Shown: piece by piece, positions 11,086 to 49,717 of the stretch
Numbering within the stretch: the first letter of the stretch is position 1
Layout: each line of letters begins with the position of its first letter
Assembly: GCA_000697665.1 (NCBI GenBank)
Contig: KL197715.1
Span: 1,002,923 to 1,066,922, forward strand
From: Jaapia argillacea MUCL 33604
Lineage: Eukaryota; Basidiomycota; Agaricomycetes; Jaapiales; Jaapiaceae
DNA: 64,000 nt
Reading direction: 5' to 3'
Notes under the pieces: model-generated
The model's database searches: none
Told to the model about the DNA's origin: nothing
The model's input: the letters and a program-made list of their open reading frames with translations, nothing else
Translations under genes and position numbers: made by a program

Positions 11086-12575
11086 GATGGTTGGGGTGAC
11101 TGTGTTGGTCTACTTGGCTATTCCTGGGTATCGTTTTATACTCCCAGGACGCCAGTGAGGATCGCCCTGGTCCTCCGGTTGATTCGGAAAGCGCAGTACT
11201 GTAGGTTTCTCCGACGGAGTCATCGTCAATCATGACATTTGCAGACAGACCTGCGCAGACCGAATTGGTCGTAAGGGGCGTCGATTGTGGCGGGGCATCT
11301 AGAGGGAAAGGAGGATTTACCTTGCGATTAGTCACTGAAATGACAAGTTCACCGGCAGCTATCGGACTTACCTATCCACCGCAGGATACCGTCCTTTGCT
11401 TGAGGTCGTCGCGTAGGCCGTAACAGATAGATAGATAGAGTGTTAGTCTAACAATACAGTAGGGAACAGGACGTTGGGCTTGTCGTCAGTTGCTCCTGGC
11501 AGTATGGAGGAGCTGCAAATTCAAACTCCGATGCATTCATCCATTCGAATCTGTTCCTGCCTCTTTTGGTATCCTCCCACCATTGGAATTATGGCCTTTG
11601 TACCTGAAGGTTATTGTGGCGAAGCAAATGGCTCCGAAATAGTGACTTTGACCTGGCGAATAGTCCTCAGATGTTTACAAAGTCATGGGTGCTGTGCAAG
11701 CTATGTCCCTCTAAGCCCGATGTGGCCTTCTGGATTCCTCAAAGCTCATCTGAGACTGCGGAAGTTGCACCGGAAGTCCGATACGAAAGATCTCGCGTGA
11801 TTGAAGCTTCATGCGCCCGGGATGCTGCCATCCTTCGCCTCAAGTATGCGTAAGTTCCCAACCACCAAACGTCGACTGTGATAGATCACCTGTTTGAGAA
11901 GTTGAGGGCGAGAAAGAGAACAGAGATGAAGCCCATTGCCGAAAGCGGACTTTGAACGATGACACAGTATCTCTTCGAAATTTCATGGCGAGGAAAAGAG
12001 TATACGGCGAGGTCGACGAGGTCGAGAGATTACACATGATACAAGAGCTCACGATAGGTGGATTCAGATGTAGTGATAGGACACCTTGTTGAGATGCTTG
12101 AGCAGTTGCCAGTGGGACACAGAAGAAGGCATATATACTTAAGCTATGAAGATACGCGCGACCACGTTCGGCGCGTCTATGTCAACAGGCTAAGTTTGAG
12201 GTGGAACAGTAGCAGGTTGGTGTGCCTTTGGACTGTCTGCAGAGCAGTTATGGGCGTGCAAAAGGCATACAACCGATCTCGACATCGGACGTCGGACTCG
12301 TGAGGGGAAAAAGTAAGGTATTGCTTGAGTATCATATGCCCTCGGTGACAATGGTTCGTGACGCTCGGTGTGACAAACGACTTGTACCATACGTTCCTGT
12401 GTTCTTCGACTTGCACATTTACATTGTCTCGTTCATTCCTCAGAGAAACGCGTGGAATACAACCATCCGCGAAACCACTGGCAATCCTGATCGTAACAAC
12501 TGAAATCCCCTCCGGCGCAGCACAAACCCCAGACCCGAGTGCCACCTGCTTATTCGGCGGACTGCCAGGAACTTC
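11086..12575. other. Intergenic, about 1.5 kb
   Basis: No supported gene. Contains a short (GATA)n-like run near 11425-11440 and scattered frames on both strands, the largest being 108 aa at 11474-11800 and a minus frame of 166 aa at 12177-12677, without recognisable motifs. The right edge meets the left arm of the inverted duplication. Confidence 0.5.
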
Positions 12576-12700
12576 TTCAAGGTCAGCTACTATTGTCCTG
12601 TAGCCACACATTGTCTCCCTAGCGAAAACCAATCGGAAGCCGCATACTGATGACCGTTCTTCCCGATTCTGCAGCATTCACCTCTGTGTTGGCTTTGTGA

Positions 12701-12830
12701 CGCGATCACGTGACCAGTTCATCGTTCGCAATTTCATTTGTGGCCCGCGTTGCTTGTGCTTTGATACACGGTGGACTGTGGCCTTGCGAGTCATCTTTGA
12801 AGGCCAAAGCGACGAACATATATAAAGGCT
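12701..12830 (+). promoter_or_regulatory. FunK1 copy 1 promoter with TCACGTGA palindrome and TATA box
   Basis: CACGTG at 12707-12712 inside TCACGTGA. Then AATTTCATTTGTGGCCCG, and TATATAAAGGCT at about 12819-12830, 40-50 bp before the ATG at 12871. The same ordered elements precede the other two FunK1 genes. CACGTG is the classical E-box for fungal bHLH factors (general knowledge), but the actual binder is unknown. Confidence 0.6.
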
Positions 12831-12870
12831 ATCATCTTTCATCAATCTTCCTGTGAGCCCTTTTCCCACA

Positions 12871-15457
12871 ATGCCTTGCTTCGATACCCCGATTAAACAT
12901 AGGCTTTCCTCCTATGCGACTAATAAGCTTCCAGCACCTCACCGAAAGGAACAGCTAGCTCGCGAGATGCGTTTGCATTTTGTCCCGGTGACCGTGGAAG
13001 CATTCCTGGCGGAATGGTTCCCCCCACCCGCAGGTGTCAGCGATGAGTCCATCCCTGACTTCCAAGGTGCCTTCAAAACTATGGTCGCAAATGTTGCCGA
13101 AGAGCAGATGTATAAAGCATTCGTAGGCCCGACCTTTATCGTACTGAATGACCCCACCTAACCATTTCTCAGATCAAGTGCGTTGAGGCGCGAGGCCTTT
13201 GTCCAAATCTCACACTCCGCGAAACACCTCACCGTGCTGAGAGCTCCGATCCGAAAGGAATCAAGGTTGATCTCTGCATATTCGAAGAGAACCACGTGTA
13301 TGGCGCCGGGAAGGAGAATACACAAGACTGGGGGAATCAGGTCATGCATGGCGAGTTCAAGAACTTGAAGGGTGCCACAGGTGGAGACCCATTCGACGAC
13401 ACTCGCTCGACTCCCCCCCTCAACGACGATGATCCATTCTTCGAAAGTGCCGCGATATCTCGACGGGACGCGCGTGGTCAGATAGTATCTTATGCCGCCG
13501 AACTTGCGCTCCGTCAGCACCGGGTGTTCTTCTTCACGTTCATGATACTGGGTTTCGAGGCACGTTTGATCCGATGGGATAGAGCCGGAACCATCGTCAC
13601 CAATCGATTCAACTATCAAACCCGTCCCGAGCTCGCCATCTTCCTGTGGCGCTTTTCCCAATCACCTCTTAAACGAGGATACGACCCCACGGCCACTCGA
13701 ATCCCCTTTGACAATCCTCTGGTCAAAGAAGCTATCAGGAACCAGCTCGATGAACGCAAAGATTACGTCCGAAAGATGTTCGAAAACGACGTTAGAGAAG
13801 GATGGCCACTTTACCGGCTTACGGTCGGGCGTCCCGGCACTCCCTCCGTTACTTCCGGTGTCCTTGGCCAAGGCACTCTGTCAACCACAATCGACGGACA
13901 GGGCCCGTCCACTACGACGGTCAAGCAATTTATCGTTGGCAGGCCGCATTTCAGAGACGGGGGCATCGTCGGACGGGCGACTCGGGGATATGTAGCCCTG
14001 GATGTTGAAACGAAAGAGTTCGTGTGGTTGAAGGACGTTTGGCGTATTGACGGCTTGCACAAGGAGGGCGATGTCATCCAAGAGATGAACGACGCAAACA
14101 TCCCTCATGTTCCGACTCTCATCTGTCACGGTGATGTGGAGAATCAAGTGACAGTCACCAATACCCGCTGGCCCGACTCGGACGAGGACACGCCGAATCC
14201 AACGCCGAATCCAATGAGGAGATTTACTCACTACCGTCTTGTCGTCAAGGAAGTCGGACGGCCTCTCGCCGAATTTGAGAATGGGAGAGAACTTGTAGGA
14301 ATTCTCAGCGATTGTTTACATGGTCAGTTTCTTTCAAATGCCCGTAGCCGGCCATTTTTCTCATTGATTTTCAGCCCATCAGGACGTATACGAAAAGCTC
14401 TCAATTCTTCATCGTGACGTCAGCGATGGGAATATTTTGATCGTCCCAGGCTCTGGCCGCGACGAAGGGGAAATGTTTGCCAACCGAGGCATGTTGAATG
14501 ATTGGGATCTTTGCAAGAAGATCTCAAAAGGGGAGGAGGGGGCGGGATCGGTCCTTGCGAGAGCACTTGACCGTACGGTGGGTATACCATATTACGCTCA
14601 TATTTCATCGCCACTTATGAACGTCGGTATAGGGAACTTGGGCTTTTATGTCCGCCGCTCTCCTCCGGGACGGTAAGAAGCCCGCCGTGCTCCAAGATGA
14701 CCTTGAATCGTTCTTCCACGTCCTCCTCTTCAATGCCGTGAAGTTTTTGAAGAACAGTTGCCAAGACATCCCCGGGTTTATCACCGACTTCTTCGAGTCT
14801 TATACGTTGACGAAGGATCGGTGCCTGGGGGGAAGAGGCAAGTATGATGCCTTCGAGCACAACAAACTTCAATACCCAGTGGACGAGCCCCCTTGGACTT
14901 TTGACTCTCACCCCTTGAAGTCTCTCACTACCACGATACTGTCCTGGTTTCACAACCATTACAAAGTTCAGGAAGCCCGGAAAGAAGCTCTACTTGCAAA
15001 GCAATCCGACAATTCTCTGCAACCCAATGCGGTGGCGCAACCATTTTTCATTCTCCCGGAGGAGGAAGTTGAAGCCGACGAAATCAATGCGATAACACTG
15101 GCTTTCGCTGAAAAACGAGCCGTATTCGTGGCATCTCATCATCATGTCAGGGCCGCGTTCGTGAAATGTCGTGGGATGGAAGGGTGGAGCGATGAGAAGG
15201 TTGCCGATCAGAGCGTTACCAAAACAACCAAGTATGGACGGGGTGTCAAGCGAGGTAGCCAATACACCATCGGGGATGGCTCACCTACTAGCAAGTTGTC
15301 CAAAACGAGCCAGTCCGTGTTCTCGTCGAGACCGCCAGCAGCTGTGCGAGAAGAAGAAGAGGAAGAAGGAGGAGGGGGAGAACGTGAATGTGAACGAGAA
15401 GAACGAGAACGAGAACGAGAAAGAGCGCGAGAAGAAGAAGAAGACGAAGACGAATAG
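12871..15457 (+). CDS. FunK1-type fungal protein kinase, copy 1 (809 aa)
   Basis: A fungal-specific kinase-like protein of the FunK1 family, expanded in multicellular basidiomycetes. Four exons (12871-13122, 13173-14322, 14375-14577, 14633-15457) sum to 810 codons. Kinase elements are a weak glycine loop VGRATRGYVAL, a putative ATP-site Lys in FVWLKDVWR, the alpha-C-like EGDVIQEMN, the catalytic loop HRDVSDGN across the third exon, a DFG replacement LNDWDLCKK, and GTWAFMS, followed by the family's DDLESFFHVLLF block. The C-terminus is a highly charged run of Glu and Arg-Glu repeats (about the last 40 residues), probably disordered. Intron 1 uses GTAGGC, where copy 2 has GTAAGC. Substrates unknown. 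Confidence 0.88.
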
Positions 15458-15861
15458 GACTGCGGAACAGTATTTCTCTATGCTATCTAATTGTTGTCGT
15501 TATCGTTTGCTGCATATTGTCGCTCTCACTCTTGTATCTAACCTGGCCTTGCAATGTCCTATTAATTTTCCATATGACCTTCACCATGATTTGCTCTTAC
15601 ATGTTTGTATACCTGGCCGCCGGAACGCGGGTCCTGAAAGCTACATAAGAATGGATATTACTACAACGGAACGAGCCAAAATATCAGCTACAACGATCGA
15701 CATAAATACGACCAAGGTAAGGCACGAGACGCCACAGCGAACTTTCCGAGCGTAAATCATCCTTCATGGATGGAGACTTCATCCATCAACACGTTCTGAC
15801 CATCTCTTCGACTTCACTCCCCTCAAACCCACCAATCTCGCTCAAAGTCTGAAAGAACAAA

Positions 15862-16525
15862 TCAAAGGCCTGCTGTAGGCCGAGTCGGTCCAAACCCAAA
15901 GTATAATCCTCTCCGTCGGTATCTAAGGCTGATAGCCATTCTTCCATCGTCTGGGCGCCCGTTATCAGGAGGGACCGAAGGCGTACGTTCGGTTTGGCTC
16001 ATTGTCGGAGTCGGAGGCGTTAGGTTAGGGTTGATTTCAGGGCTTGACGAGGGAGCACCGGGAGAGGGGGGTGTCGAATCTGGTGTGTTCTCCGAGATTC
16101 CAACCTTGGCCGCGAATGACAGCGAGTCATCCACGGTCCAACTCATCCACAACTCGCAACACAGGGGCAAGTGAGACGACGTCAGGTGGTTATCCTGCGA
16201 AACAGGTCAACACGCCTCCTGTGAGCCAGAATAACAGGGTGCTTCGGAATGAGTTTGAAATACGAGTGAGGGACGAAGGAGAGGAGGGTGAGCGGCTGTC
16301 GGGTATGATGGGAGGGAGGCTGCTCGACTTTCGAATAGTCGCCATCAATGGGTAACTTCGACACGGAAGATAAGGAGGGAAAAAGTACCGTCGCTTGAAT
16401 GTATAGGTAATATCGGGAAGTCGTTCGTCGAGGTCATCGGCCAGGAGGTGTTCTTGAGCCGGGATAGCGCAGGACGCATGTGAGACTCCCCTGGTTTACT
16501 CGAGTGGTCAATCCCGACGGTTTCG
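15862..16525 (-). pseudogene. Decayed copy of the FunK1-neighbour gene
   Basis: Collinear with the intact gene at 29698-30520. Shared blocks include DELDRGW-like, NPNLTPPTPTMSQTERT and the C-terminal LSEIGGFEG-type coding region, plus the intron region. This copy is not open. The ATG region has no counterpart, an in-frame TGA falls where the intact copy reads through GGATATCCACCCGTG (here GGATAACCACCTGAC), and several short indels shift frame, one of them inside TERTRLRS. It lies convergent to FunK1 copy 1, exactly as the intact gene does to copy 2. Confidence 0.75.
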
Positions 16526-17508
16526 AGATCGGAGGCCGGATTTCGTGATGGGGAGTGCGAATAGGATTATGTGCTGAGGGGGTATGTTGACCTTTGGGAG
16601 CAGAAACACAGGATCGACATAAAAAAAAATTCAGCTTTGGCATCTTGATTACCTGGCGGTCGATGGAGGCGACCAGCCACCGCCATCGAAGTCCGAGTTT
16701 TGGTCATAGTTGAACATTATAATCCACTGTAAGTGTGCCGGAAAAGTGTCGATCCTGGGGCGGGTGATAAACCTCCAGGTGAACTCCCTTGGCAACGCAT
16801 CCTGTTCAATTTGTGGAATAAGCTGTCTGTAGCTCCTACATACCACAAAGACGGGAAGTTGTCTTACGCGGGCTACAGGAGCCAACAAAGCCATCCGGTT
16901 TGGACCTTGGGGCGTTTGCCAGCTGCTTGCAAAGAGATGAGTGACCAAACTCTTGGTCTAAATCCTTTTCCCAGGTTGTACAAACCCCGTCAAAGGAGAC
17001 GGTCGCCGGGAGGAAGAACAGCACCCTCTCCACTGGTACGAGAGTGGCTGTAGATTTGAGGATCGCCTAGGTTGACGTTCGATGCATTGGGATCAATCAC
17101 GACGATCTCTCTCGAATAATTTTGCTTCAGGTGAGGCAGAGCGGAATTGGGCAGACAGTCAGATGTGAATGTGGTGTCGGTGGAGATGTGGCCGTTGGTG
17201 TCGTGTATGGACGGGATGTGCAGAAAGCCCCGGCGCAAGGCTTGAAATGTTGCGTTTCTTTTCCCCCTCTGTCTCAATGGCAATGGCTCTCTACATTTTT
17301 ATCGACTCTATGCCTCCGTCCCCACCTCTATACATAGCTGTTACGATCATTATCATTGTTTTCCTTTTACCGATATGTGCGAAAAGTTATCATGCACAAA
17401 CCCTCCTGGGCATCGGAGTTTAAAATGTCACCGAAATCATTGGCGCAGCCCACTGCGACTTGATATCATCGAACTCACTGTCATCCGCGTTTCTACCTCT
17501 CTAACATT
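16526..17508. other. Upstream region of the intersectin-like gene
   Basis: Between the duplication edge and the scaffold gene. Minus-strand frames of 65-99 aa at 16649-17283 could be remnants of a gene but show no family motif and no convincing splice chain. A TC-rich tract near 17230-17340 is promoter-like. Confidence 0.4.
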
Positions 17509-20500
17509 ATGTCGCAGTGGGGACAAGCCCCTGCGGGCTACCAGTACCCGATGCAAACCGGCTTTCCCGGTGCCAACCCCCAGTTACAGCAGGGCTTTCA
17601 GGGCGGTGGGCTTGGACCTCAACCCACCGGCTTTCCAGGTCAACAGCAGCAGAGACCAGGATTTCTGCAGTCACAGCCAACGGGTTTTCCTGGAGTGTCA
17701 GGTTTTGGCCAAGTACAACCACAGCCAACTGGATTCGGAGGGTTTCAGCAACGACAACAAATCCCACCTGTTCCGCCCATGCCATCACAATTCCAGCAGC
17801 AACCCAACCAATCAAGTTCATTCCTAGGCCAACCCCAACAGCAGCAGCAGCCACGCATGCTTAGCCCGTCTATATCCAGCTTACAAACCCAACCTACTGG
17901 GTTCGCTGGCGGGGGCGGGTTTTCGGGTTTGGGAAGGGGAGGTGGCTATCAATCTTCGCCTGCTCCACTCGTTCCTCAGGTTACTGGATATGCCGATCCT
18001 AGGCTGCAGATGATGCAGAGCACCTTCATGCCTGCCAACCTCTCAGCACCTTATGGTGCGGGCGGTGCACCGCAGCTTGCGCAGCAGCAATACGGGGGAG
18101 GCTCGTTACAGCAGTCGTTCCAGCAACTTAACGAGGAGGTCAGAGGCACGGCAGCTCCCAAGGTTCCATGGACCCTTTCGAAAGCCGAGAAGAAGAACTA
18201 TGACCAGATCTTCCGCGCTTGGGATGCTCAGGGTACGGGGTTCATTGACGGTGGAACGGCGAGGAATGTATTTAGTCAGAGTGGTTTGGACAATAATGAC
18301 CTTGCTAGGATCTGGTAAGTTGCGGCTTCTTCCCTCTTTGTACTCGAGATGACGATTTCACATCTTACAGGACACTTGCGGATGCTGATAATCGGGGAAA
18401 ACTGAACTTGCAAGAGTTTTACGTTGCAATGGGTCTCATTTACCGTCGTACGTTCGACTTTGTCTCACTTGCGGATCTATTCGCTCAAAGCTGAACCAGG
18501 ACTCAATGGCAATGATATTCCCGATGAGCTACCAGCCGAACTTGTCCCCCCATCTCATCGTGATCTGGACAGTTCCGTTAACTTCTTGAAGGACGTTCTC
18601 AAGAATGAAACCAGTCGAGCTCGATCTCCTGGAGCCCTCGATGCACCCATTTCTCGACTAAAGGAGCGCTCATTCCAGGGTGGGGCTTCGGCTGGAGCTG
18701 GAGGTCGACAAGATGCGACCGTGTATCGACACCAAGACACCGATGTTGGCGGAGTCTACCAGCCACGTTCACGTCACCTCGATCGAAGCACTGTCCGAGT
18801 TGGTAACGAGAGCCCAGCAGATGATCTCACGGACTTGAAGCGACAATTGGATAATACGGCCAAGATGTTAGACCAAGCTACAGAAGACGACGCATCTCGT
18901 TCCGCAGAGGATGAAGCTTTGGAGCGTGAAATGTCCGACCTCAGGTACAGGGTTAAGAGGGTACGCGAAGATTTGGATTATGTTTCGAGAGGACCTAGGA
19001 CCTCTGGGAAGGAGGAAGAGAGGAGGAGATTGGAAAGAGAGTTGTTGAACTTGATGCATGAGCGTGTGCCCGAGGTTGAGAGGAAGATTAAGGCTCGAGA
19101 GGAGAGACGAGAACGGGAGAAGAGGGACTGGGCGCGGGAACGAGATCGGCGAAATGACAGGTTAGCAAGGTTCGAGGATAAGGATGAAAACCGTTATTCT
19201 CCTTCGAGGAGATACGATGATGATGATGGTGACTCGGGTTACTCGAGGGGTGGTTATGAGAAAGACCATCGGGAGAGCGAGTGGAAGAGAGACCGCGACT
19301 ATGAGCGAGATCGGCCGTATCGACGAGATCGTGACTATGATCAGGAAAGAGAGAACAGAGACAGGGATTATGACCGACCTCGAAGTCCGCCCGTTCCTGC
19401 TCGCTCGCCCGCTCCTCCTCCCCCAGCTGCTCCTCCCAGCAGTATCGCCAAGCCTCCACCCCCGCCGCCTGCTCCAACCGCCTCTCCTGCTCCCAACACA
19501 AAGGACATGACGCCCGAGGAACGTAGAGCATACATGAAAGCAGAAGCTCAGAGGCGTATTCAAGCCCGGATGGCGGCTCTCGGTGTCACAGCACCATCAT
19601 CTACGTCCAAGACCTTGGATACCAGCGTTGAGGATCGGTTAGCTCAAGAGAAGAAAGAAGCAGAGGAGAAAGCGCAGGAGGCTGAGCGTTTAGCTGAGGA
19701 GAGGGAAAGGCTTCGTAAAGAACGTTTGGAGAGTGAGCGAGCACTGAAATCTCCCCAGCCTACTCCTACCACACCAACTCCGACAGCTTCGGCTCCAGCT
19801 CCGACCCCGACGCAAGTGCCACAACCTAGGAAACCAGCAGCGCCGCCCGCCCCTAAGAGAGCTCCAGCACCCCCACCTCCTCGAAAGGCGCCAGCTACTC
19901 GGCCGGCCGTCGTCACACGTTCTCCCGCGCCTCCTGCAGCACCACCAGCCATTGCAGTGACCTCACCCCCGCCCCCGCCACCTGCTCCTCCGGTCGCTCC
20001 TCCAGCACCTCGTGTTGATCCGGAGGAACAGAGGCTCAAGGAAAGAGAAGAGGCCCTACGGAAGCAGCGTGAAGCACGTCTTGAACGTATCAAGCAGTTG
20101 GAAAGGGAAGAGGAAGAAGCTCGTCTTGCTGAAGAACAATATCAGTCACGGAGGCAGGCATTCGTGAACGCCAGGAATACGCCTTCACCTGCTCCTCCAG
20201 TTTCACCTCCCGCTGCTGTTGCTGCCCCTCCTCCGCCAGAGCCAGAGGAGGAACAATTTGAGCCTGCCCCTTTCACTGCACCGCCGCCGCCACCACCTCC
20301 ACCACCTCCTGCCCCACCTGCGCCTGTTAGCAGTCCTCCCGCTGTCAGCTCCGAGAAATCGAAGACCAATCCATTCAGTCGCCTTATGAAGGAAGGCGCG
20401 TCGGCTTCGCCATCTCCTCCAGTATCAACGGGTAACGGGAGCACCAATCCCTTCTTCAGAAGTCAAACTGCCCCACCCCCTTCTGCTCCGTTTGCCCCGC

Positions 20501-23500
20501 CCCCGAAGAGTACGACTCCAGTCCCCGTGAAGTCGTCCTACAATACGGCACCAGACGACGACGACGATTGGGACGAAATTGAGGAGAAGGATGTTGACGA
20601 GAGTAGTGATGATGAGCTGAGCTCATCTCGAGACACTCGTAGCAAACTGGCCCAACAGCTATTTGGAAGTATTTTGCCCGCCCGACCCCAGTCTGCCGGA
20701 CCTACCGCTGGCGGACCGTCATCCAAACCCGCCACTCCCGTCTCAGCTGCTTCTCCTCCGCCACCTCCTCCGCCACCAGCTGCTCCTCCTGCTCCATTTT
20801 CTCAAGGTTCCTCGATTCCCCCTCCTCCCTCCGCTCCCCCCCCTCCATTTGCAGCACCAGTTGCTGTGGCTGCTGGAGGGGATGGTCGCAATGCACTCCT
20901 AAGCGCAATCCAAGGTGGTGCTCGACTTCGAAAGGCGGTAACGAACGACCGCAGTTCTGCACCAGTGTCTGGAAAGGTGCTGGGTGACACAGCCCCTCCC
21001 CCTCATATCAATGCTGCGCCAAGACCTCTGTCACCACCTTCTGTCTCTCCCCCGCCACCCGCTTCAGAACCTGTACCTCCAGCTCTCAATGTTCCATCCA
21101 TGAGCTCCCAATCCAGCAATAGACAGTCTGTTGATTGGTATGCTGGACTTGCGGCCGATCAAGAGGCTGTTTACCATGATCAGCTGCCCCCCATGGCCGA
21201 AGAGGATGAGGCCGAGCCGCCGACAGCCTCCCCTGTCCCTGATATCCAAGTCTCAGAGCATGGTGTAGAACCTGTTGATATCATGGATGACGTTGACAAA
21301 AGCGTCGGTGAGTCATATACCACGTGAAAACCTGTTTGGGATCCTGACCCTACGACCTCTAGAGTATCGTGTTCGCAGTTTGTATCCGTACGAGGGCCAG
21401 CGACATGAAGACTTGAGTGAGTGTCACTTTTTTCCACGCTTCCGGACCAGATAATTGACGAAATTCAGGCTTCGGGGAGAATCTTGTGCTCACTGCATAC
21501 CCTTCGAAGAGCGGAAGTGAGTGGTGGTACGGGTCACTCGTTCAAGACGGAAGGTCTGGTTTTTTCCCCAAGACCTACGTTGAGAAGATCGAAAACGGTG
21601 AGGAGGCCCTGGTCCTCTTATTACTGAACACCGTCTGACATTTATGACAGTCGTCAAAGCCACGGCCCTATATGCTTATACGGGAGGTAATGCCGATGAG
21701 CTCCCATTCGCCGAAGGTGACGAGCTCGTAGTGGTTGACAGGAGTGATGATGTCTGGTGGAAGGTTGAGCAGGGAGGCATGGTGTTCATAGCTCCTGCTG
21801 GCTATTTGCAAGTCGAGGGTTAGTCATACCACCATTTCCTTGAGTCTTTCTGTTCTCATATTCAGGTTCTGGCCCAGGCTAAAATTACTTTTTCTTTTCA
21901 TGTATGCTTGAATAAATTGAAACCTTACCATTGCAATGAATGCGTAGATTCTTCACTCATCCACGAAAGTGCGATTCTCCGTTCCTCGGTACATATCGAC
22001 CAAGGCGGCGAAGCTACTGACCGAGTTGCCACACCTCATGAACATGATTCTGACAGTGACTCTGATACCTCTTCTGCATATCTGTCTTTCGAAGATTCTG
22101 ACTCCGAGGATGACGACGTCCAATCAGAGGCAAAGCGGAAAGCAGAACGGGAAGCCAGAGAAATAGAGAGACAGCGTGTGTTGCAAGCCGCTGGCCTCGT
22201 TTTGAAATCAGATTCTGTACCTCCGGCTCGTCCTCGAATCCGACGACGGCCACCACCTGCGGTTCCAAACCGAAGCTCGGTGATCTCTGACTCGTCTGAC
22301 AAGCATCTCCCTTCCCTCCCATCCCCTGATGCAAATGATAATGTCATTCGGTTGGACGATGCCTATGAGCGTTACGAAGCGTTCAAGCAGGGCCATGTGA
22401 ACCGACTCTCTGTCGCTTCCTTCGAGACGATACCATCATCTCCAACCTCGCCAACAATGTCGATCGACCGTGCCAGCTCACGTGAAGGCGAAGGGACAAG
22501 AACAATCTCAAACTTATTGCACTTCCTGGGACGTAAAGCACCGAGCAATGACGGCGAGCGTCGAATGCCAGTCATCTCTGGTCCTATTTCAGGCCCAATC
22601 TCGGTGTCCATCTCGGCGCCCATTTCCGACCCTGCGAGTGGTCGACCAAGTAGTCCCTTACAACGAGAAAATAGTCCAAATTTTGGATCGGTGAGTACCT
22701 TACCGTATCGGTTTCCGCTTGTAGGCGTTAATGCAGTATGATGGTAGTCATGGTCGAGCCTGGTCGACAAGGCGGTATTGGAAGATATGCCTGCCGCGGA
22801 GCGACGCCGGCAGGAGGTTCGTTATCAAATCGTTAAGAACGTTGTTGTTTGCTGATTGTGCCATAGGCTACGTTTGAGCTCATCGCTACCGAAGCAGCAT
22901 ATGTTCGAGACCTACAATTGATTGTTGGGGTAAGTTACCGTCCACCGATTTCCTATCTTGCGCTCACGGAGCCTCCGGCGTGTTTTCCATCAGGTCTTCT
23001 ATTCTAGCATGCTTTCTCTCCTCGATCAGAAGGCCATCACAGTGATATTTGCGAACGTCGAAGACATTCTTTTGACAAATACTGTGAGCTGTTTCTTCTG
23101 CTGTGCATCACTGGTTCTGATTTTTGAGTCGCAGACGTTCCTTAGCTCTTTGGAGGAGAGACAGAGGGAGTGTCGTCTATACGTTGATAAGATCGGTGAC
23201 CTATTGGAAAAGAATATGTCGAATATGCAGGTGTACATGGTGCGACCTGGATCTGCCCCTCATCCTCGAGTCGTCTCAGCAATATGTGCAGGACTACTGC
23301 GTCAATCAAGGGGCCGCCATTCAGGTCTTACAATCATTAAGGACGTCGAATCCAGAGCTGGCTGCCCTCTTACTGGTTCGTTCTTTTCTTACCTCTGATG
23401 ACCGCCCTGTTTGACGTCTGCCTTTGTAGAACTTGCGTGATGATCCAAGCGTTCGCAATCTCGACCTCTCCAGTTATCTCCTCGCTCCGAGTAAGCATAT

Positions 23501-24335
23501 CTGATTCGCAGAGAATCATGCTCTCTCATCTGTGTTTACAGTGCAAAGAATCACTCGTTATCCGTTACTGATAAAACAGGTCAAGTCGGCTTCGTTCATC
23601 TTCTACACCTTTTCTCATTCTTTCCAGATTCTTCATTACACCGAAGCCGAAGATGAGCGCAAACAAATCGAACAAGCCCTTCACAAAGCCGAACGGGTCT
23701 TGGCTAATATCAACGAAAGTATCCGCGACCAAGAAGGTCGAGAGAGACTACAATCCCTCTCCCGAGATTTATGGATTGGCTCAGCGTGAGACAAACTCGC
23801 CTCCTGTTCTTCCTGTTCGCTGCTGATTAATTTCATTTTGATATTCTCGTAGCCGTCTTGATTTGACAGCACCAACACGCTATATGGGGCCTCGGAGGCT
23901 CTTGAAGGAGGGCACACTCATGAAAGCCAAGAGCGGGCGGAAACTGCGCGGGTTCTTGTGTAGCGACATTCTGGTGCTGACTGACGAGGGTGCGAAAACG
24001 CTATATCGCATGGTAATACTCCCTGTTACTACCCCCCGCTATACCACTCTGACCTCGTCGTTGGCAGCCCGTCCCGCTCGCCGAGGCTCAGGTCAGGGAA
24101 ACTCCAGGAGGGAGGGGTGAGCAGGTTCTCATTACATTTTATACTTCATCATAATCTCTTCGTAGATGATCTCACCTTCCAAATCTCACTGGCCTTTCCT
24201 CGAGGAGGCGATGTTATCAACCTTCGAGCGCCTTCTGTCCGCGAATGCCAAGCATGGGTGAAGACGATTGAATCGGTCAGTAGGAAGTGCAGAGAAACGG
24301 AGAGAAAAGCGATGAATGGAGCTTCATCGTGGTAG
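17509..24335 (+). CDS. Intersectin/Pan1-like endocytic scaffold with RhoGEF (Cin1 type)
   Basis: A multidomain scaffold linking endocytosis, actin assembly and Rho-family GTPase activation, with the layout of Cryptococcus Cin1 and animal long intersectin. My 18-exon model (17509-18314, 18371-18447, 18500-21307, 21363-21416, then short exons to 24335) sums to 1944 codons with no frame conflict. Order by residue: QPTGF-type repeats (1-150); one EH domain at about 220-320 with the EF loop DADNRGKLNLQEF; coiled coil and charged region; QRRIQARMAALG helix; long Pro-rich segments; a WH2 motif NALLSAIQGGARLRK near 1090; SH3-1 (1231-1290, ending GFFPKTYVEKI); SH3-2 (1292-1347, ALYAYTGGNADELPF); a DH domain (about 1620-1815, with TEAAYVRDLQLIVG and MQRITRYPLLIKQ); and PH (about 1825-1935). 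Only one EH domain is visible. Stop TAG 24333-24335. Confidence 0.88.
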
Positions 24336-24603
24336 ATGGCCCTACGAACTCTCAGCGGACATTCCTTCTCATACTATGGACGGTGGATTCGTATCTCCTT
24401 ATTTTTCGTCACGCTCTACATTCGCTCTTTTTCGGGGGACATTTAGTGAGAGGTTGGGTCGTATTATCCGGCCATGTCGGCCATCTGGATGGGACTGTAA
24501 GTAATTAGGTTAAGATATCACAGACGGAATGTAACAGGCCGCCAGTTACATAGAGCAGAGGCAGAGCCTACATCCCAACCTCACGATGTGACCATGGGCG
24601 GAA
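24336..24603. other. Convergent 3' flanks, intersectin-like gene and SUV3
   Basis: A short convergent gap. No gene is seen. Confidence 0.6.
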
Positions 24604-27179
24604 TTATGCGCTTAACCTCGACCCTCGTATTGCTCCCCGACTTCTCTTGATCCCAAACCCTCCTTCCTCGTCAATAGATGGTGAATCCTGCGTAGGCGAT
24701 GTCTCGAGATCCCCGACCTTTGCCTTCCCTTTTGCCTTCGATTTCCCATCCTTCAAGAACCTCGCCTTCAGACACCACTCCATAACCTTCTCCACTCTCT
24801 CCTTCAACACGAAACCTTCGTCTTGGTCTGGGAACGAGACCGGCGCCCGATACGTATACCACAAGTAGTGAACTACCACCTTGTGCAAGCTCTCCAGGAC
24901 ACTCAAAGTCTCAGCCGCATTGACCACCGACTTGTTCCCCTCCATCCTCCCGACAGTGTCTATGAGAACGTCGAACATCTCCGTGTCGCTGATAAGGGTC
25001 TTCAACGACACGCTTCGAGAGTTGCGATACATATGCATAAGGCGAGCGACACATTCCATCGCCCGTTCGTCTCTCCAAGTCACAGGACTCATCATGAACA
25101 CGACCATCTCGCTGAGGGTCAAACCACGTGCCTCCCTATCGAGGAAGGTGATGATACGCGCCAACTGGGGTTCATCCTCCAGCTGGAAAGGCGCCGGGAT
25201 GACTGAGAGGTATCGACGAGCTTCGAAAACGGTTGCGAGAGACGAGTTTGGTGGAAGCGCAGAAAGGATGGAACAAAGAAGGTCGCTTTGACAAATTGCA
25301 AGACGGGCGGCGGAGAGAGGGCTTGGGGGTTGTTCGAGGGCATGAGAAAGGTATGAAAGGTCCTCTGGATGACGAGTTGTGGCGATGCCGACCGAGGAAG
25401 CGTCATGGAGACCATAACGACCAGCGCGTCCTGCGATTTGTTTGATCTGGGAGACTGTTAAGAAACGATCCTTCGTTCCGTCCCATTTTGAAACGGCATC
25501 AAAGATGATTCTCTTGATTTTTCTGTGGAAGTAAAAGTCAACCGTCAAAAACAAAACCTGGCAAGAAGCGATACTGACAAGTTCAAGCCCATCCCAATAG
25601 CGTCGCTGCCAATGAGCACATCATACCCACTCCCCTGTTTATTGAACAACGCAGCTTGCTCCGTCCTGATCTCAGGCGGCAACCTCCCATATGCAACAGC
25701 ACACCTCAACCCAGTCTCTTCCTCTACCCTCTTCTTCAAGCCAAAGATCCCACTCCGACTGAAACTGACAACACAGTCCCCTTTCTGCACTCTCCCGAGA
25801 TTACCGCCAAGGGACGTCTCAGCGACGCGAAGCGGGGTGAGGCGTTGATACCTATTGATGACGAGCTTGTCGCCAGTGTGACGTGTCAAAGCTTCAATTA
25901 CAGGGATAGCAGTCTCTTCTCCACATAGATGAAGTTCCTTGGCGTCCAACCCGAGGAAAGCGTTGGTCCACGCCCCACCACGTTGAGAATCCGAGATCAT
26001 TTGGATCTCGTCGATAACAGCCACGTCGAAAGAAGTCGCCATAGGCACCATTTCGACAGTGCAGGAGATAAGACCTGCACCCTCTTCAACGATCCTTTGT
26101 TCTTCGCCAGTAAGGAGGTTACAAGCTCGGCTGAACTCGAGATTGCCTGATTTCGTCACAGCTGGAACTGGGTCCTTCTTTTCATCTACCGCCACGTCAA
26201 AATTCGAGTCTTCGTCGGGTTCCACGCGGATGGGGGGTTCTTCGACTCCGAGAGGAACGATTTGACCTTTGTTTAACCGCTCCCATATCTCATGGGCTAA
26301 TAATCTCAGAGGACCACAATAGCATCCCACCCTGGAGGCTGCAAGCGCTCGTAGGGCTGTATGGGTCTTGCCAGAGTTTGTGGGACCGACGTGCATGATG
26401 ATAGTCCGCGGACGTCGACGGGCTTGTGGGAACCATTCCGCTGGATTCGATTGGTCTGATGATTTAAGGAGATGGGACATGGCCGATAGAGTGGAATGGG
26501 GTACGGAAGGGACGAGAGACGGGTTGGAGGTGGTGTAGGCGTATAGTAGACGGGTTAAGACTCGATCAACGGGTTCCCTGGGAGCATCGCTGGGGTTGAC
26601 ACTGCCAGGTGAAGAGAGCTCGGAGGATATACGAGTGAGTTGTGGAGGTGTAAATGACGATATTTGGAAGGCATCGCCTGATTCGAGGCCTGCTAGGAAG
26701 GCGGTAACGAGGGGCTTAACGTCCTCTGGCGGGATGCCGAACGACTCGAGTCGGCGAATGTTTTTACCCTCCGTCGCCCACCTCGGAGCACGGCCTCGAA
26801 GGATAGCAAGAATTTTCTCGGGAGGCATGGGCTTGGGGACGCGAGGTTCGAGCGCGGCTTCAGGTGAATTCCGAAGACGTTGAGGACTGTATGAGGACCG
26901 TGATGAATTTTCACTAGCGTAGAGGGGTTGTCTGGTGTTTCGGTTCGGTCGGCGTTGGGAATCGCGATGAGGGATGTTCGTAGGAGGTGGTCGATGGGAG
27001 TTTGGTCGCATTTGGGTTGCGTGAGCCGCTGGGCGGACTGGAGGGTTAGAGTGGGCATGGGGAGGCGTGCGTGGTGATGGTTGGGAGGATATCAACCTGG
27101 TCTGACCGAGTTGGTGGAAGTGCCCTCGGCTGAGAGAGGTTCTGCATCGAGAGCAGACCTTGAGCGTTATTCGATCCAT
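24604..27179 (-). CDS. SUV3: Mitochondrial ATP-dependent RNA helicase Suv3
   Basis: The helicase subunit of the mitochondrial degradosome, unwinding RNA for 3'-5' decay. Two exons (25579-27179 and 24604-25522) give 839 aa across a 56-nt intron. The N-terminus is Arg/Ser/Pro-rich without long acidic stretches, as expected for a mitochondrial presequence. Motifs seen are HVGPTNSGKTHTA (Walker A), VAVIDEIQM (motif II), VSFSRSGIFGLKK, YDVLIGSDAIGMGLNL spanning the splice joint, and QIKQIAGRAGRYG (motif VI). The C-terminal Suv3 helical region and a basic tail follow (GIKRSRGAIRGSRLSA). Start ATG 27179, divergent from the mitoribosomal gene that begins 429 bp away. Confidence 0.93.
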
Positions 27180-27607
27180 ATTGGAGGAGGGAGGCTTTAA
27201 TTAGTCCCTTGACAGACGCTATCTCAGCATATCCCGTATTGAGTCAGGCGTCCAAGTGTTTCACTTCCAGGAAGTGATATACGTGCTAATGATCAAAGTG
27301 GTCAGTTTTGCGACCCCCCAACAGCACTGTCGCGACCTACAACTGTGAGACTCACATGGCTGTCGAATCAGAGCCCTTTCCTCAGCTATCAGACTACTGT
27401 TGGGACGTTGAAGAGCACAGCGAGCAGAAAATAACCAACAGGACTTTTGAAAGTTTGGAGTTCGCGTTTGGACAAAATTTGGCCTCCCGCCACCCGCCTT
27501 TGTTGTGGTCTGTTTGTTACGATCGGGACACAGCGCCAAAAACATCGTTGTCGCCACCATCACCGTCCCCAAGAGGTCAACTTCCTCGTCTAAAATAACC
27601 CGCTACA
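27180..27607. promoter_or_regulatory. Divergent promoter, SUV3 / mS33
   Basis: 428 bp between two divergent nuclear genes for mitochondrial proteins (an RNA helicase and a small-subunit ribosomal protein). Shared control is plausible but inferred only from layout. No TATA box is evident. Confidence 0.45.
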
Positions 27608-27953
27608 ATGGCGACCATGACTCCATCCTACCTAGCCTCCCTCACCCGCCTGCGATCCTCTATCTTTCAAACAGCCTACAACCCCTCCTCGATACGCACG
27701 GGCGCAAAATACCTCCGTCGTCGCCTTCGAGGTCCCTCCATGATCAAATATTACCCCATGAGGCTTACAATCTTGGAAATGATGAAGGGAGTCTCAACAA
27801 AAACGGGAAAGGAGAATGGTGTGGTCAAATATAATGCAGCGGGCGAGGAGGAGGATATGAGGGTATGGGATGAGAATGAGCTGCAGAGGCTGAGAGACGT
27901 TGAGGATAGGAAAATGAGGGGTAAGGGGGCGCCGAAGAAGGCCAGGAGTAAAG
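27608..27953 (+). CDS. RSM27: Mitochondrial small-subunit ribosomal protein mS33 (Rsm27), 3' end unresolved
   Basis: A protein of the mitochondrial 37S ribosomal subunit. The start MATMTPSYLASLTRLRSSIF is followed by the family signature QTAYNPSSIRTGAKYLRRRL RGPSMIKYYP, the hallmark of mS33/Rsm27, then an acidic stretch and the basic segment DRKMRGKGAPKKARSK. A GTGAGA donor follows AAAG at 27953. The family normally ends shortly after this point, so a small last exon is expected downstream, but I could not fix it. If the intron is not used, the frame runs to a stop at 28291, giving a 227-aa product with an unlikely tail. Confidence 0.75.
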
Positions 27954-28578
27954 GTGAGAGGCCGCTACATCTTTTCGCTTGGAGAGTTACTGATGCTGTT
28001 CATGAACCCAAGGGGAGGGTCGTCGTGCGTCCAGGAAGCGGTGATCCTTTGGCTTATCCCTTGCTATGTCAACTCTCCGTGTCGTCTTATTCTACAATAT
28101 CTATTTTTCGGATTCTGGCCTCCACCCGACGAAGAAAGACACGCCCCGTTACGACCTTCCATCAAAGGACTCCTGAGAACTGCGTGTCTACTCGCCGTCT
28201 AGCGAACAATATTCCGCGACAGCGTCTGTGTTCTCCCCGCCTCATCCGAAACTCCGTCAGGCTTGGGGCGGACTACCTTTTGGGATTCTAGCACAATCCG
28301 TATGTTCCACGGGATGTATCGCGTTTTATTTTCCGAACTTGTGTGGATCTGCGAGCATCAGACTGAACGAACGTGTTTAAAGGAGATCATTCCACCGACG
28401 AGGAGCGTAGGACTCCTTCTCGGCGATTGTCCTCCTAACCAGGCCCTGCGATCGGTCAGAAATCAACCTGAATTTCGCCAACGCAGGCGTGCCCCAAATA
28501 ATGGTCAAACATTCCAGGCGACACAAGCGCACCTCAAAGTATTGTACTACGCGAGTTCCCTATACGCTCCGACCCAAG
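27954..28578. other. Region with probable last exon of mS33 and unexplained frames
   Basis: Expected to hold the terminal exon of the mS33 gene. One plus-strand frame at about 28200-28300 (SEQYSATASVFSPPHPKLRQ) looks coding-like but has no clear start or splice partner. Confidence 0.3.
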
Positions 28579-29325
28579 TCAATGTTTCATCACCCCACCA
28601 TGCTTCGAACCTTGCCCATCTCTCTTTGGCGTCAACTCCTCCTTCCGTAAGGTCGCTTTCGTCTTCTTATGTTTGTTGGTCTTGAGATTTGTTTTGTTCA
28701 ACCGCATCGGATTTGTAGTGGGGACAGCACCAGTAGTCTCGGAAGAGCGAGGGATGAGCGTGATGGAAGTATTTGCCTTCGCAGTCGAGGGAAGCGTTGA
28801 CTGGGGAGTAGGCGTGGACGTAGGCATGCGAGGAGGTGGAGCTGGGCTTTCGTCTGACAGCATGTTTAGCGCTTTACGATTTGGCTCCGGTTCGTGTACG
28901 AGTGTGTCGCCGCGAGGCTCGAGATTCCCAAGAACGCTGTGATCTTCTCCGAGTATCTGCGGAGGGGATGGCATCGCGTCGTTCGACAGAGGGAGTAAAT
29001 GATTGAGATCGATTTCCGAAATTCCACGTTTGCTCGGCGGATCTTGAGGGTTGAGAATGTGGTGTACATCAGGAAAACGACCAGTTGGCAGATCTACTGC
29101 TTCTCGGTCGACTAGTGTGGTCAGAGTACGGACTTCTGGTTGGACGTCGCGACAGTTGACGTTGTGTACGGTGTACGAACGTCCCATGAGTGTACCAGGT
29201 TTCACGAGACTTGGATTGCGGTGTAGTAGAGATGTGGGTGTTTCTCGCTCCATTGTGGCCAAAGCTTGCACATGAAGGATCGCCAAAAGGAAAAGAACGG
29301 TGTTGAAGAGACTGGGAGTTGGCAT
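28579..29325 (-). CDS. Predicted small secreted protein (248 aa)
   Basis: An intronless frame with a clear signal peptide, MPTPSLFNTVLFLLAILHVQALA, then a mature part rich in Ser, Thr and Pro with a central SPAPPPRMPTSTPTPQSTLP linker and a Lys-rich C-terminus (NKTNLKTNKHKKTKATLRK). Only one cysteine remains after the signal peptide, so it is not a typical disulphide-stabilised effector. A TATA-like ATATAAAAC (on the plus strand TATAAAAC near 29399-29406) lies about 70 bp before the start. Dibasic sites (KR, RK) could serve Kex2-type processing. Function unknown. Confidence 0.65.
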   Translation of the reverse strand: MPTPSLFNTVLFLLAILHVQALATMERETPTSLLHRNPSLVKPGTLMGRSYTVHNVNCRDVQPEVRTLTTLVDREAVDLPTGRFPDVHHILNPQDPPSKRGISEIDLNHLLPLSNDAMPSPPQILGEDHSVLGNLEPRGDTLVHEPEPNRKALNMLSDESPAPPPRMPTSTPTPQSTLPSTAKANTSITLIPRSSETTGAVPTTNPMRLNKTNLKTNKHKKTKATLRKEELTPKRDGQGSKHGGVMKH

Positions 29326-29697
29326 GTTGTCGAAACGCTGCGAACTTTGGGACTAGAATGTATGCGAGAATCGAGGATCCAGCCGTCGAAGGGGCAGAAT
29401 ATAAAACGGCACGTTGAGGTCTTGGTGAAAGAAGTGAACGAGGTTTGTTGTGCCAGTTTCGACTTATAAGGGTTACCAAGTGGACTTATCACGGGTTATA
29501 ATATCAGTGAGGAAATTGAATGCTTATTCAATTATGACCAAAACGACTCCATCGACCGACCACGACGGCGGCTGGTTGTCTCAATCGACGCTCAGGTACT
29601 ACATCAAGGTCTAAAGGCTGAATTCTGGATGTCGCCACTGTATTTCTTCTCTTGAAAGTCAAGATCCCTCCCCAGCAAATAAACGTATCCGCACCCC
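29326..29697. promoter_or_regulatory. Divergent promoter region
   Basis: Between the secreted-protein gene (minus) and the FunK1-neighbour gene (plus). The duplication arm begins just inside the neighbour's first exon, so this promoter was not carried to the left arm. Confidence 0.4.
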
Positions 29698-30520
29698 ATG
29701 ATGGAACCTGACTTACCTACTACGACACCCAGTCCCCCCGTCGAAACCGTCGGAACTGATCACTCAAGTAAACCAGTGCGATCTCACATACGTCCTCCGT
29801 TATCGCCGGCTCAAGAACGCCGACTAATCGATAACCTCGACGAACGATTTCTTGACATCACTCGTGCGTTCAAGAAACGGTACGCCCTTGCCTTCCTCTA
29901 TTTCATGCTACCCACCGACGCCGACTCGACGAAAGTTTAGCACCCTCCCATCGTCAATTCTCCCAACCCTCCAATCATACCTAACAGCGACTCACACCCT
30001 GCTCTCCTTGATCCTCCAAATCCCACCCCTCACTCGCACTTCAATCTCGTTACGAACAACCTTGCTTTTACGGCTTACAGGAGATGTGATGACCTGTTTC
30101 GCAGGATATCCACCCGTGGTCGGCTCACTTGCCCCTCTATTACAATGGATGGACGAGTTGGACCGTGGATGGCTCGCGGTCATTCGCGGCCAAGGTTGGA
30201 ATCTAGAAGAACACACCGGATTCGACATCCCCCCTCTCCCTAACATTCCTTCGCCTAATGCTGAAATCAACCCTAACCCAACCTCTCCGACTTCGACGAT
30301 GAGCCAAACCGAACGTACCCGCCTTCGGTCCCTCCTGATAACGGGCACCCAGACGATGGAAGAATGGCTGTCAGCCTTAGATACGGACGGAGAAGATTAT
30401 ACCTTGGGTTTGGAGCGACTTGGCCTACAGCAGGGCTTTGATGATTTGTTCTTTCGGACTTTGAGCGAGATTGGTGGGTTTGAAGGGAGTGAAGTCGAAG
30501 GAATGGTCGGAACTTGTTGA
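29698..30520 (+). CDS. Conserved hypothetical protein beside FunK1 (intact copy)
   Basis: Two exons (29698-29879 and 29941-30520) joined by a 61-nt intron. The joint gives FKKRTLPSSILPTLQSYL in frame. The N-terminus is Pro/Thr-rich with PPLSPAQERRLIDNLDERFL, then an all-helical middle (THTLLSLILQIPPL, LRTTLLLRLTGDVMTC, LLQWMDELDRGWLAVIRGQ), a low-complexity linker, and a C-terminal block starting MSQTERTRLRSLL and ending GFDDLFFRTLSEIGGFEG. No catalytic motif is recognised. The gene is convergent to FunK1 copy 2 with about 320 bp between stops. Its left-arm copy is broken, so this one is likely the functional source. Confidence 0.7.
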
Positions 30521-30839
30521 TAGATGAATTGTCGATCTCTGAAGGTTGATTTACGCTTCAGAAAGTTTGCTGTGGCGTCTCGTGCCTTACCTTGGTCGTA
30601 TTTATGTCGTTGTAGCCGATATTTTGCTTCGTTATAGTAATATTCCATCCTTATGTAGCTTTCAGGACTCGCCTTCCGGCGCCCAGGGATACAAACATGT
30701 AAGACCAAATCACCGTGAAGGTCATGTGGAAATGATAGGGCATTGCAAGGCAAGGGTAGATACAAGAGTGAGAGCGACAATATGCAGCAAACGATAACGA
30801 CAACAATTAGATAGCATGAAGAAACATTGTTCCGCAGTC

Positions 30840-33403
30840 CTATTCGTCTTCTTCTTCTTCTTCTTCTGGTGCCCGTGCCCGTGCCCGTTCTCGTTCTTGT
30901 TCTCGTTCTTCATCTTCCTCTTCTTCTTCTCGAACAGCCGCTTCCGGTCTCGACGAAAATATGGACTGGCTCCTTTTGGACAGCTTTCCCGTGGGTGAGC
31001 CATCCCCGATGGTGTATTGGCTACCCCGCTTGACACCCCGTCCACTCCCGGTCGTTTTGTAAACACTCTGATCGGCAACTTTGTCATCCACCCATCCCTG
31101 CAGCTTGCGACATGCCGCAAACGCCTCGTTGGCACGGAGATGGGATGCCAAGTTTACTAGCGCGAGTTTTTCGTTGATGGCGAAAGTTTTCGCATGGAAT
31201 TCTTTGACTGCAGCAAGCATTCTAATCTCCTCCTCGGGGAGGTTCAGAAGGGGTCCAGACGCCGAAGTGGGCGAAAGAGGATGGTCGGGTTGCTCCGCGG
31301 CTAGTTGTTGTCGAGCCTTCGTCCGGTCATCCTCAACTTCGTAATAGGTGTGAAACCAGCCCAGTAACATGGTGATGAGAGTGTTCAAGGGTGTAGATTC
31401 AAAAGCCAAAGCAGGCGCCTTCACTGGGTACACAAGTTTGTTGGCCGTGAAGGCTGTCTGCTTGCTCTGTCCTCCCACGCACACCTCCCCTTGGTACGAA
31501 TAGGACTCGAAGAAGTGACTGATGAACCCGGGGACGTCCTGGCAATTGTTCTTCAGAAACTTCACGCCATTAAAGAGGAGGACGTGAAAGAACGACTCCA
31601 GGTCATCTTGGAGCAAGGCGGGCTTCGTTCCGTCCTGGAGAAGACCGGCGGACATGAAGGCCCAGGTTCCCTACGGAGACGTTTATAAATGGCGATAAAA
31701 TAGGAGCATAATGATTTGGGATACCCACCGTACGGTCGCGTGCCCTGGCGAGGACCGATCCGGCCCCTTCCTTCCCTTTTGAGATCTTCTTGCAAAGATC
31801 CCAATCATTCAACATGCCTCGGTTGACAATCCCTTCCCCTTCGTCGCGACCGGAGCCAGGGATGATCAAAATGTTCCCATCGCTGACGTCGCGATGAAGA
31901 ATTGAAAGTTTTTCATACGCCCCCTGATGAGCTGAAAAAAAATAAATAAGAAAATTGGCCAGTTATACGCATCGGAAAGGGACTGACCAAGTAAACAATC
32001 GCTGAGGATCCCTACAAGGTCTCTCCCATTCTCAAATTCGGCGAGAGGCCGTCCGACTTCCTTGACGACAAGACGGTAGTGAGTAAATCCCCTCATCGGA
32101 TTCGGCGGCGGGTCCTTGTGGGGCCAGCGGGTATTGGTGCGTGTCTTTTGATCCTCGACATCACCGTGACAGACGAGCGTCGGAACATGAGGGATGTTTG
32201 CTTCGTTCATCTCCTGGATGACATCACCCTCCTTGTGCAAGCCGTCAATGCGCCAAACATCCTTCAACCAGACAAACTCCTTCGTCTCAACGTTCAGGGC
32301 TACATATCCTCGAGTTGCCCGTCCGACGACGCCCCCGTCTCTGAAATGCGGCCTGCCAACGATAAATTTCTTGACGATCGTGGTGGATGGGCCCTGTCCG
32401 TCGATTGTGGTCGACGGACCCGTATCGGCGGCACGTCCGACCGTAAGCTGGTAAAGTGGCCATCCTTCTCTAATATCTTCTTGGAACATCTTTCGGACGT
32501 AATCTTTGCGTTCATCGAGCTGGTTCGTGATAGCTTGTTTGACCAGAGGATCTTCAAAGGAAATTCGAGTGGCTGTGGGGTCGTATCCTCGGTCGAGAGG
32601 GGATAATTGGGAAAATCGCCACAGGAAGATGGCGAGCTCGGGACGGGTTTGATAGTTAAACCGATTGGTGACGATGGTTCCGGCTCTATCCCATCGGATC
32701 AAGCGCGCCTCGAACCCTAGTATCATGAACGTGAAGAAGAATACGCGGTGCTGACGGAGCGCAAGTTCGGCGGCATAAGATACTATCTGACCACGCGCGT
32801 CCCGTCGACTTAACGCGCCACTTTCGAAGGGTGAAAACGGATCGTCGGGTTTGGGAGGGGCAGTTGCGCGAGTATCGTCGAATGGGTCTCCAGATGTGGC
32901 ACCCTTCAAGTTCTTGAACTCGCCATGCATGACCTGATTCCCCCAGTCTTGTGTATTCTCCTTCCCGGCGCCATACACGTGGCTCTCTTCGAATACGCAG
33001 AGATCGACCTTGATTCCTTTCGGATCGGAGCTCTCAGCACGGTGAGGTGTTTCACGGAGTGTGAGATTTGGACAAAGGCCTCGCGCCTCGACGCACTTGA
33101 TCTGAAAAATGGTGAGGTGGGATCATTCAGTACGATAAAGGGTGAGCTTACAAATGCTTTATACATCTGCTCTTCGGCAACATTTGCGACCATCGTTGTG
33201 AAGGCACCGTGGAAGTCAGGGATGGATTCATCGCTGACACCTGCGGGTGGGGGGAACCATTCCGCCAGGAATGCTTCCACGGTCACCGGGACAAAATGCA
33301 GGCGCATCTCGCGAGCTAGCTGTCCCTTTCGGTGAGGTGCTGGAAGCTTATTAGTCGCATAGGAGGAAAGCCTGTGTTTAATCGGGGTATCGAAGCAGGG
33401 CAT
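30840..33403 (-). CDS. FunK1-type fungal protein kinase, copy 2 (799 aa)
   Basis: A very close paralogue of copy 1. Exons 33152-33403, 31988-33101, 31729-31931 and 30840-31670 sum to 800 codons. All three introns are at the same positions and phases as in copy 1. The kinase landmarks are the same: VGRATRGYVAL, FVWLKDVWR, EGDVIQEMN, HRDVSDGN, LNDWDLCKK, GTWAFMS. Differences cluster in the linker before the kinase core (copy 1 has extra PGTPSVTSGVLGQG-type residues) and in the Glu/Arg-rich tail. ATG at 33403 follows the shared TATA and CACGTG promoter. No damage seen. Confidence 0.88.
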
Positions 33404-33445
33404 TGTGGGGAAAGGGCTCACAGAAAGATTGATAGAAAATGGCAG

Positions 33446-33573
33446 CCTTTATATATTTTCGTCGCTTTGGCCTTCGAAGATGACTCGCAAGGCCACAGTC
33501 CACCGGTGTATCAAAGCGCAAGCAACGCGGGCCACAAGTGAAATTGCGGATGATGAACTGGTCACGTGATCGC
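33446..33573 (-). promoter_or_regulatory. FunK1 copy 2 promoter with TCACGTGA palindrome and TATA box
   Basis: CACGTG at 33563-33568 and a TATATAAAGGCTGCC box at about 33441-33455 on the minus strand, with the AATTTCACTTGTGGCCCG block between. Near-identical to copy 1, as expected from the duplication. Confidence 0.6.
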
Positions 33574-33715
33574 GTTCCAAAGCCAACGCAGCGGTGAATG
33601 CTTCAGAATTGGGAAGAACGGTCATCAGTATGCGGCTTCTAATTGGTTTTTCTTGGTAGACAATGTGTAGCTAACAGAACAATGGGAGCTGACCTCGAGG
33701 ATGGCCCAAGTGTAT

Positions 33716-49540: not shown

Positions 49541-49624
49541 ACGCGATCACGTGACAAGTCGCTTTGTGGAAGTTAATTTCATTTTCGTCTGTGGCCCGTG
49601 GCATGAGTGGCATGTATAAAGGCT
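49541..49624 (+). promoter_or_regulatory. FunK1 copy 3 promoter with TCACGTGA palindrome and TATA box
   Basis: GCGATCACGTGAC with CACGTG at 49548-49553, then TTAATTTCATTTTCGTCTGTG GCCCGTGG-like sequence, and TATAAAGGCTGTCT from 49615. The order is that of copies 1 and 2, but the CACGTG-to-TATA distance is about 67 bp instead of about 114 bp. Confidence 0.6.
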
Positions 49625-49717
49625 GTCTTCCCTCCTGTGAGTTCCAATCGATCCTCCCTGGACGTCGAGCTCGACCAACCTCCAGAACCAACCCGAGAAG
49701 AACAGCTAGCTCGCAAA

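Follow-up and report, generated by a model that had tools for sequence, protein, structure and literature searches.

Two long inverted copies of the same DNA on either side of a block of genes raise two questions: how the copies came to face each other, and whether recombination between them turns the block around. Such a layout is found in Jaapia argillacea MUCL 33604, in a stretch of 64,000 nucleotides (hereafter the window, to which positions given without a contig name refer) that corresponds to positions 1002923–1066922 of contig C7 (KL197715.1) in a genome of 43.7 Mb and 95 contigs. Each of the two arms carries a gene for a FunK1 kinase together with a copy of a neighbour gene. The layout probably goes back to an old, local inverted segmental duplication in a part of C7 rich in FunK1 genes, involving a still older block copy, the insertion of an arm from right to left, the decay of one neighbour copy and partial gene conversion.

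According to extracts of PMC3203195, FunK1 was first described from Coprinopsis cinerea; they report independent lineage-specific expansions and put the diversity of the family down to lineage-specific duplication. An extract of PMC6001611 counts it among the expanded families that are least understood. Local segmental duplication where FunK1 genes abound is an already known kind of event, and the present case is ordinary though instructive. It would provide a worked example of local FunK1 multiplication, in which a copy and its upstream region were carried into another gene while the passenger neighbour was decaying.

Two inverted arms with complete FunK1 genes

Comparison of the window with itself joins the left arm (12574–16714, forward strand) to the right arm (33701–29527, the inverted copy) in a single inverted match of 4265 columns with 81.8% identity, gaps included (E=0). 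A MAFFT alignment within these bounds contains 3452 matches, 604 mismatches and 204 gap columns, that is, 85.1% identity over ungapped positions, and its longest perfect match is 88 bp. By comparison, the best match of the left arm to the window reversed without complementing, used as a control, is 95 bp long (70.5%, E=1e-4).

The inverted match takes in the DNA upstream of FunK1, four exons, three introns and intergenic DNA. The arms differ at 28 of 290 upstream sites, at 7/50, 12/52 and 11/55 sites of the three introns, and at 35 of 357 sites of the 3' intergenic DNA (9.8%). Coding, intronic and intergenic DNA therefore match in inverted orientation, as in a local inverted segmental duplication. 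An earlier, sequence-only reading of this locus had proposed an inverted duplication of about 4 kb that matched in promoter, exons, introns and intergenic DNA; base-level alignment bears this out, the coordinates then given being right within about 210 bases, and the match is not confined to coding exons. Homology ends sharply on both sides of the arms, the neighbouring 100-column blocks dropping to 34–54%, and genome searches with the flanks 16715–17463, 11500–12573 and 33702–35500 revealed no further copy of them next to the partner arm.

That the arms are an assembly artefact, due to misjoined haplotypes of a dikaryon, is barely credible, even in a draft genome of 95 contigs. Indeed, the arms lie inverted within one contig, their 15% divergence is made up of mismatches spread along their length, and the flanks differ on all four sides. 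Furthermore, the two neighbour copies are in different states of decay, both kinase frames are open, and the sole N-run of the window (754 N, 46639–47392) is far off.

FunK1-L (forward strand, exons 12871–13122, 13173–14322, 14375–14577 and 14633–15457) and FunK1-R (reverse strand, exons 33403–33152, 33101–31988, 31931–31729 and 31670–30840) are each a complete four-exon gene whose translation contains no stop. The main exons score 74.2 and 76.4 bits, respectively, with PF17667 (Pkinase_fungal), above its curated cut-off of 24.1 bits. Both translations contain HRDVSDGN, with Ser at the place of the catalytic-loop Lys. FunK1-L has this motif and a DWD motif, both of which we take to have their usual kinase roles. 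The replacement of the typical kinase Lys by Ser in the active site of FunK1 is noted in the extracts of PMC3203195. Both this Ser and the presence of several locally duplicated gene copies recall the expansions described there. Unlike those general accounts, as far as the extracts go, a single event is resolved here to its bounds, its neighbour gene, its probable landing site and a likely partial homogenization.

The two genes look like functional kinases with a conserved core and a tail of 150 residues that appears to change fast. The overall dN/dS between them is 0.39, and 0.14–0.30 before the tail. In the tail (14771–15215, forward strand), where dN is 0.37 and dS 0.52, only 73 of 149 amino acids are identical (49%), against 409 of 453 (90%) for the residues encoded by 12871–14322, and dN/dS reaches 1.19 in one 60-column stretch (14774–14951). 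This divergence may reflect relaxed constraint or diversifying selection. A tail swapped in from another paralogue was rejected as an explanation, the L and R tails being closer to each other (73/149) than to the compared paralogues (25–34%, among the matches listed).

A neighbour gene open in one arm and decayed in the other

The neighbour gene is convergent to FunK1. Its right-arm copy is an open reading frame (ORF) with a main exon at 29828–30520 (forward strand) and matches no family above a curated cut-off. The left-arm copy, which aligns to it over 15815–16460 (reverse strand), carries five frameshifting gaps (of 1, 20, 16, 2 and 2 bases) and two in-frame stops. Alignment of both copies thus agrees with the earlier claim that the right one is open and the left one decayed.

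Identification of the neighbour as TFB6 was tried and rejected: the PF17110 scores of 13.3 and 13.1 bits (E=0.074 and 0.084) do not reach the cut-off of 21, and PF15751, with 14.8 bits for a cut-off of 27, scored no worse. A search of the genome with PF17110 gave no match and is uninformative, since its control matched nowhere either.

A third copy of the neighbour, X, lies at C7:1240838–1241514 and is also decayed, by a deletion and stops. Beside it, a stretch of 76 bp (C7:1240761–1240836) matches 36764–36832, near the right arm, with 80% identity, and in the genome search this stretch was the only other match of 36764–36832.

The left arm lies within a gene copy whose paralogue lacks it

About 20 kb to the left of the left arm's site, C7 carries, in inverted orientation, a gene of the DUF6697 family, called P here, and the left arm sits between two fragments of a broken copy of that gene. 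The left piece of the interrupted copy (11519–12049, forward strand) matches C7:995946–996491 and the right piece (16736–17158, forward strand) matches C7:995138–994671 at the DNA level. When the left arm is omitted, homology to P reaches 12049 and restarts at 16736, two points that are 0.8 kb apart in P, and the arm itself has no match to P at E<=1. Since it interrupts a gene copy whose paralogue is without the arm, the left arm is most likely the later arrival. P is recognized by PF20411 (DUF6697, cut-off 23.9) at C7:994702–995034, with 50.3 bits over positions 64–176 of 177 and one stop inside; a hand-joined query gives 41 bits. The literature search found no paper naming this family.

The interrupted copy belongs to an older inverted duplication, comprising a P450 piece, an RTA1 gene and the DUF6697-family gene. 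Window and P blocks are collinear and inverted over C7:994671–1001336: 17158–16913 matches C7:994671–994923, 12031–11519 matches C7:995967–996491, 11357–9606 matches C7:996650–998418 (82.6% over 1789 columns) and 9055–8871 matches C7:1001149–1001336. The third of these matches corresponds to the RTA1-like gene region (9606–11357, reverse strand).

Several points weigh against this account of the landing site. On its left side the insertion has no clean edge: 524 bp (12050–12573) are without a match in P, and a stretch of about 0.8 kb present in P has no counterpart at the insertion site. The right piece has neither a Pfam nor a protein-search match, so that its link with P is at the DNA level only, and the left piece contains a stop and matches the P protein at only 51%. 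P, where domain positions 1–63 are not recognized and the frame changes near 995.05 kb, may be damaged too.

The unclean left edge would also suit the converse history, with an original left arm, a copied right arm and the loss of the arm from P. This history is improbable: the P homologues of both flanks lie 0.8 kb apart with their coding pieces in order, the decayed neighbour is the left copy, and the decayed X adjoins sequence whose only other match is near the right arm. The sequence-only reading had already favoured the right arm as the source, from the state of the neighbour copies, and both the interrupted gene with its arm-less paralogue and the sequence beside X point the same way.

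With the right arm as the source, we infer the following course of events. An older inverted duplication would have copied the P450 piece, the RTA1 gene and the DUF6697-family gene (C7:994.7–1001.3 kb) to about 8.9–17.2 kb of the window. An inverted copy of the right arm's 4.1 kb segment with FunK1 and its convergent neighbour would then have entered the second DUF6697 gene copy and replaced about 0.8 kb of it. The left neighbour copy, being broken, presumably decayed, while the right copy and both kinases would have stayed open.

The insertion probably occurred through the repair of a double-strand break or through template switching, not through a transposon. Indeed, a transposon origin was rejected, as neither a target-site duplication nor a terminal inverted repeat beyond chance was found at the arm ends: the best shared words are 4–5 bp (reached by 44–88% of random pairs) and the inverted words 3–4 bp (reached by 88–98%). 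A Pfam scan of selected window ORFs, not of all of them, found no transposase domain. Repeat-induced mutation was also rejected, since both arms have an observed/expected CpG ratio of 1.06, compared with 0.94 for the window, and are thus not depleted.

Orientation of the middle block

The middle block (16715–29526, 12.8 kb) contains, besides one unassigned ORF, genes for SUV3 (Pfam E-value 6e-62) and MRP-S33 (5e-23), two names of the earlier reading that Pfam supports. The ORF that it had called intersectin-like has a WH2 motif (2e-10), and the one called secreted matches no Pfam family at E<=0.1.

The earlier reading had also proposed that this block could flip by recombination between the arms, and flank order offers a check that does not need reads. 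The outer and inner flanks of the left arm are both collinear with P, and the right-arm flanks (inner 28400–29526, outer 33702–36000) have no match to P at E<=1e-3. After an odd number of flips since the insertion, 16736–17158 would adjoin the right arm, and of the two flanks of the left arm P would match only the outer one. Since P matches both of them and neither right-arm flank, the present order is that into which the arm was inserted. Flank order thus indicates that there is no net inversion of the middle block in this genome and that its orientation has not changed since the arm came in. Flipping as a present property of the locus is not supported, given this collinearity and the 15% divergence of the arms, although the block may flip rarely or be polymorphic for a flip among strains.

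In its strongest form, the proposal makes the locus a switch, the arms recombining to invert the block so that both orientations coexist among nuclei or strains. The arms are inverted and 4.1 kb long, their divergence patches (see below) suggest that they interact, and there is a precedent: according to extracts of PMC3574095, two identical 250-bp inverted repeats flip 3.6 kb of the MAT region of Sclerotinia sclerotiorum in each meiotic generation. Such a switch is highly unlikely here. The present orientation is the one that the left arm entered, and the long near-identical arms expected of an invertible switch are not seen, 88 bp being the longest perfect run. Furthermore, the middle block appears to hold housekeeping genes, and no switchable promoter is apparent at the arms. 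As in S. sclerotiorum, fungal inverted repeats surround a gene block; unlike the identical repeats there, the arms of this one genome have diverged and show no net flip.

The same holds for the comparison with human inversions mediated by inverted repeats, in which, according to extracts of PMC3961182, breakpoints fall in regions of high identity (782 bp at 99.9% in the cited example). Both cases involve inverted segmental duplications around genes, with gene conversion being considered, but the arms here, in a single genome, share no comparable high-identity stretch. The presence of inverted arms is not enough to infer that a segment flips; whether it does can be tested from the order of the flanks in a paralogue without the arm.

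Uneven divergence and probable gene conversion between the arms

Divergence between the arms is patchy. Among 1119 silent sites (four-fold, intron, upstream and intergenic), 162 differ, and a scan singles out an inner block (13523–15481, forward strand) with 25.1% silent differences against 9.6% elsewhere, a scan value reached by 0 of 1000 shuffles. The longest difference-free run, of 61 silent sites, was reached by 49 of 5000 shuffles. Along the kinase gene, dS climbs from 0.15 [0.09–0.23] in 12871–13450 and 0.23 in 13451–14322 to 0.47 in 14375–14770 and 0.52 [0.34–0.77] in 14771–15215, and is 0.35 in 15216–15457.

The three neighbour copies also conflict. The right copy (R) is closer to X in 29772–30302 and closer to the left copy (L) in 30303–30709; the sites unique to L and to X number 74:47 in the former and 12:24 in the latter (Fisher p=0.004, for stretches chosen after the table had been seen, which counts against this result). 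Together with the silent patchiness, this conflict suggests later partial gene conversion between the arms. Ectopic conversion would have refreshed the 5' half of FunK1 and the intergenic and neighbour 3' part, leaving out the 3' half of the kinase.

Alternatively, there was no conversion, and the patches reflect differing constraint, with conserved upstream and 3' regions and a faster kinase 3' half. This is the less likely account, yet a serious one. The four-fold sites alone (n=315) give a weaker signal, 46 of 1000 shuffles reaching the scan value, and the upstream and intergenic DNA may be under constraint rather than converted; the raised amino-acid change in the tail also fits heterogeneous selection. 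The climb of dS from 0.15 to about 0.5, with bootstrap intervals that do not overlap, argues against it, as do the three-copy conflict and the intergenic DNA, which is less diverged than the synonymous sites of the adjacent exon. Ectopic conversion would account for all the patches at once, and heterogeneous constraint for part of them.

A more active form of conversion can be imagined, in which ongoing ectopic exchange keeps the arms in patchy concert, occasional crossovers flip the 12.8 kb block so that the orientation of SUV3 and mS33 is polymorphic within the species, and the kinase tails move apart under diversifying selection; we regard it as very unlikely.

Genomic setting and other features of the window

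A search of the genome with the PF17667 profile gave 66 exon-level matches. As the model also matched 4 of 14 bacterial controls, above the cut-off in 2 of them, it is imperfectly specific, and a small number of the 66 matches may belong to other kinases. Seven FunK1 genes were counted on C7 between 880 and 1054 kb, at 881, 908, 913, 992, 1017 (L), 1035 (R) and 1053 kb. The last of these (T; 49607–52395, forward strand) is an older paralogue used as an outgroup, and the start and tail of its model are uncertain.

The window has zero Rfam matches and no tRNA gene, and no match to a plasmid collection, as expected. An ORF at 47875–48513 has a sub-threshold match to RNA_polI_A34 (19.2 bits for a cut-off of 31.7). 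Overlapping direct repeats of 254–532 bp, with 70–76% identity, occupy 62700–63495. Two further nested inverted pairs are present, 56023–56692/60391–61063 (87.6%), one arm of which overlaps a Per1-like ORF, and 58276–59356/61413–62491 (68.2%); given these pairs, local inverted duplication is recurrent in the region.

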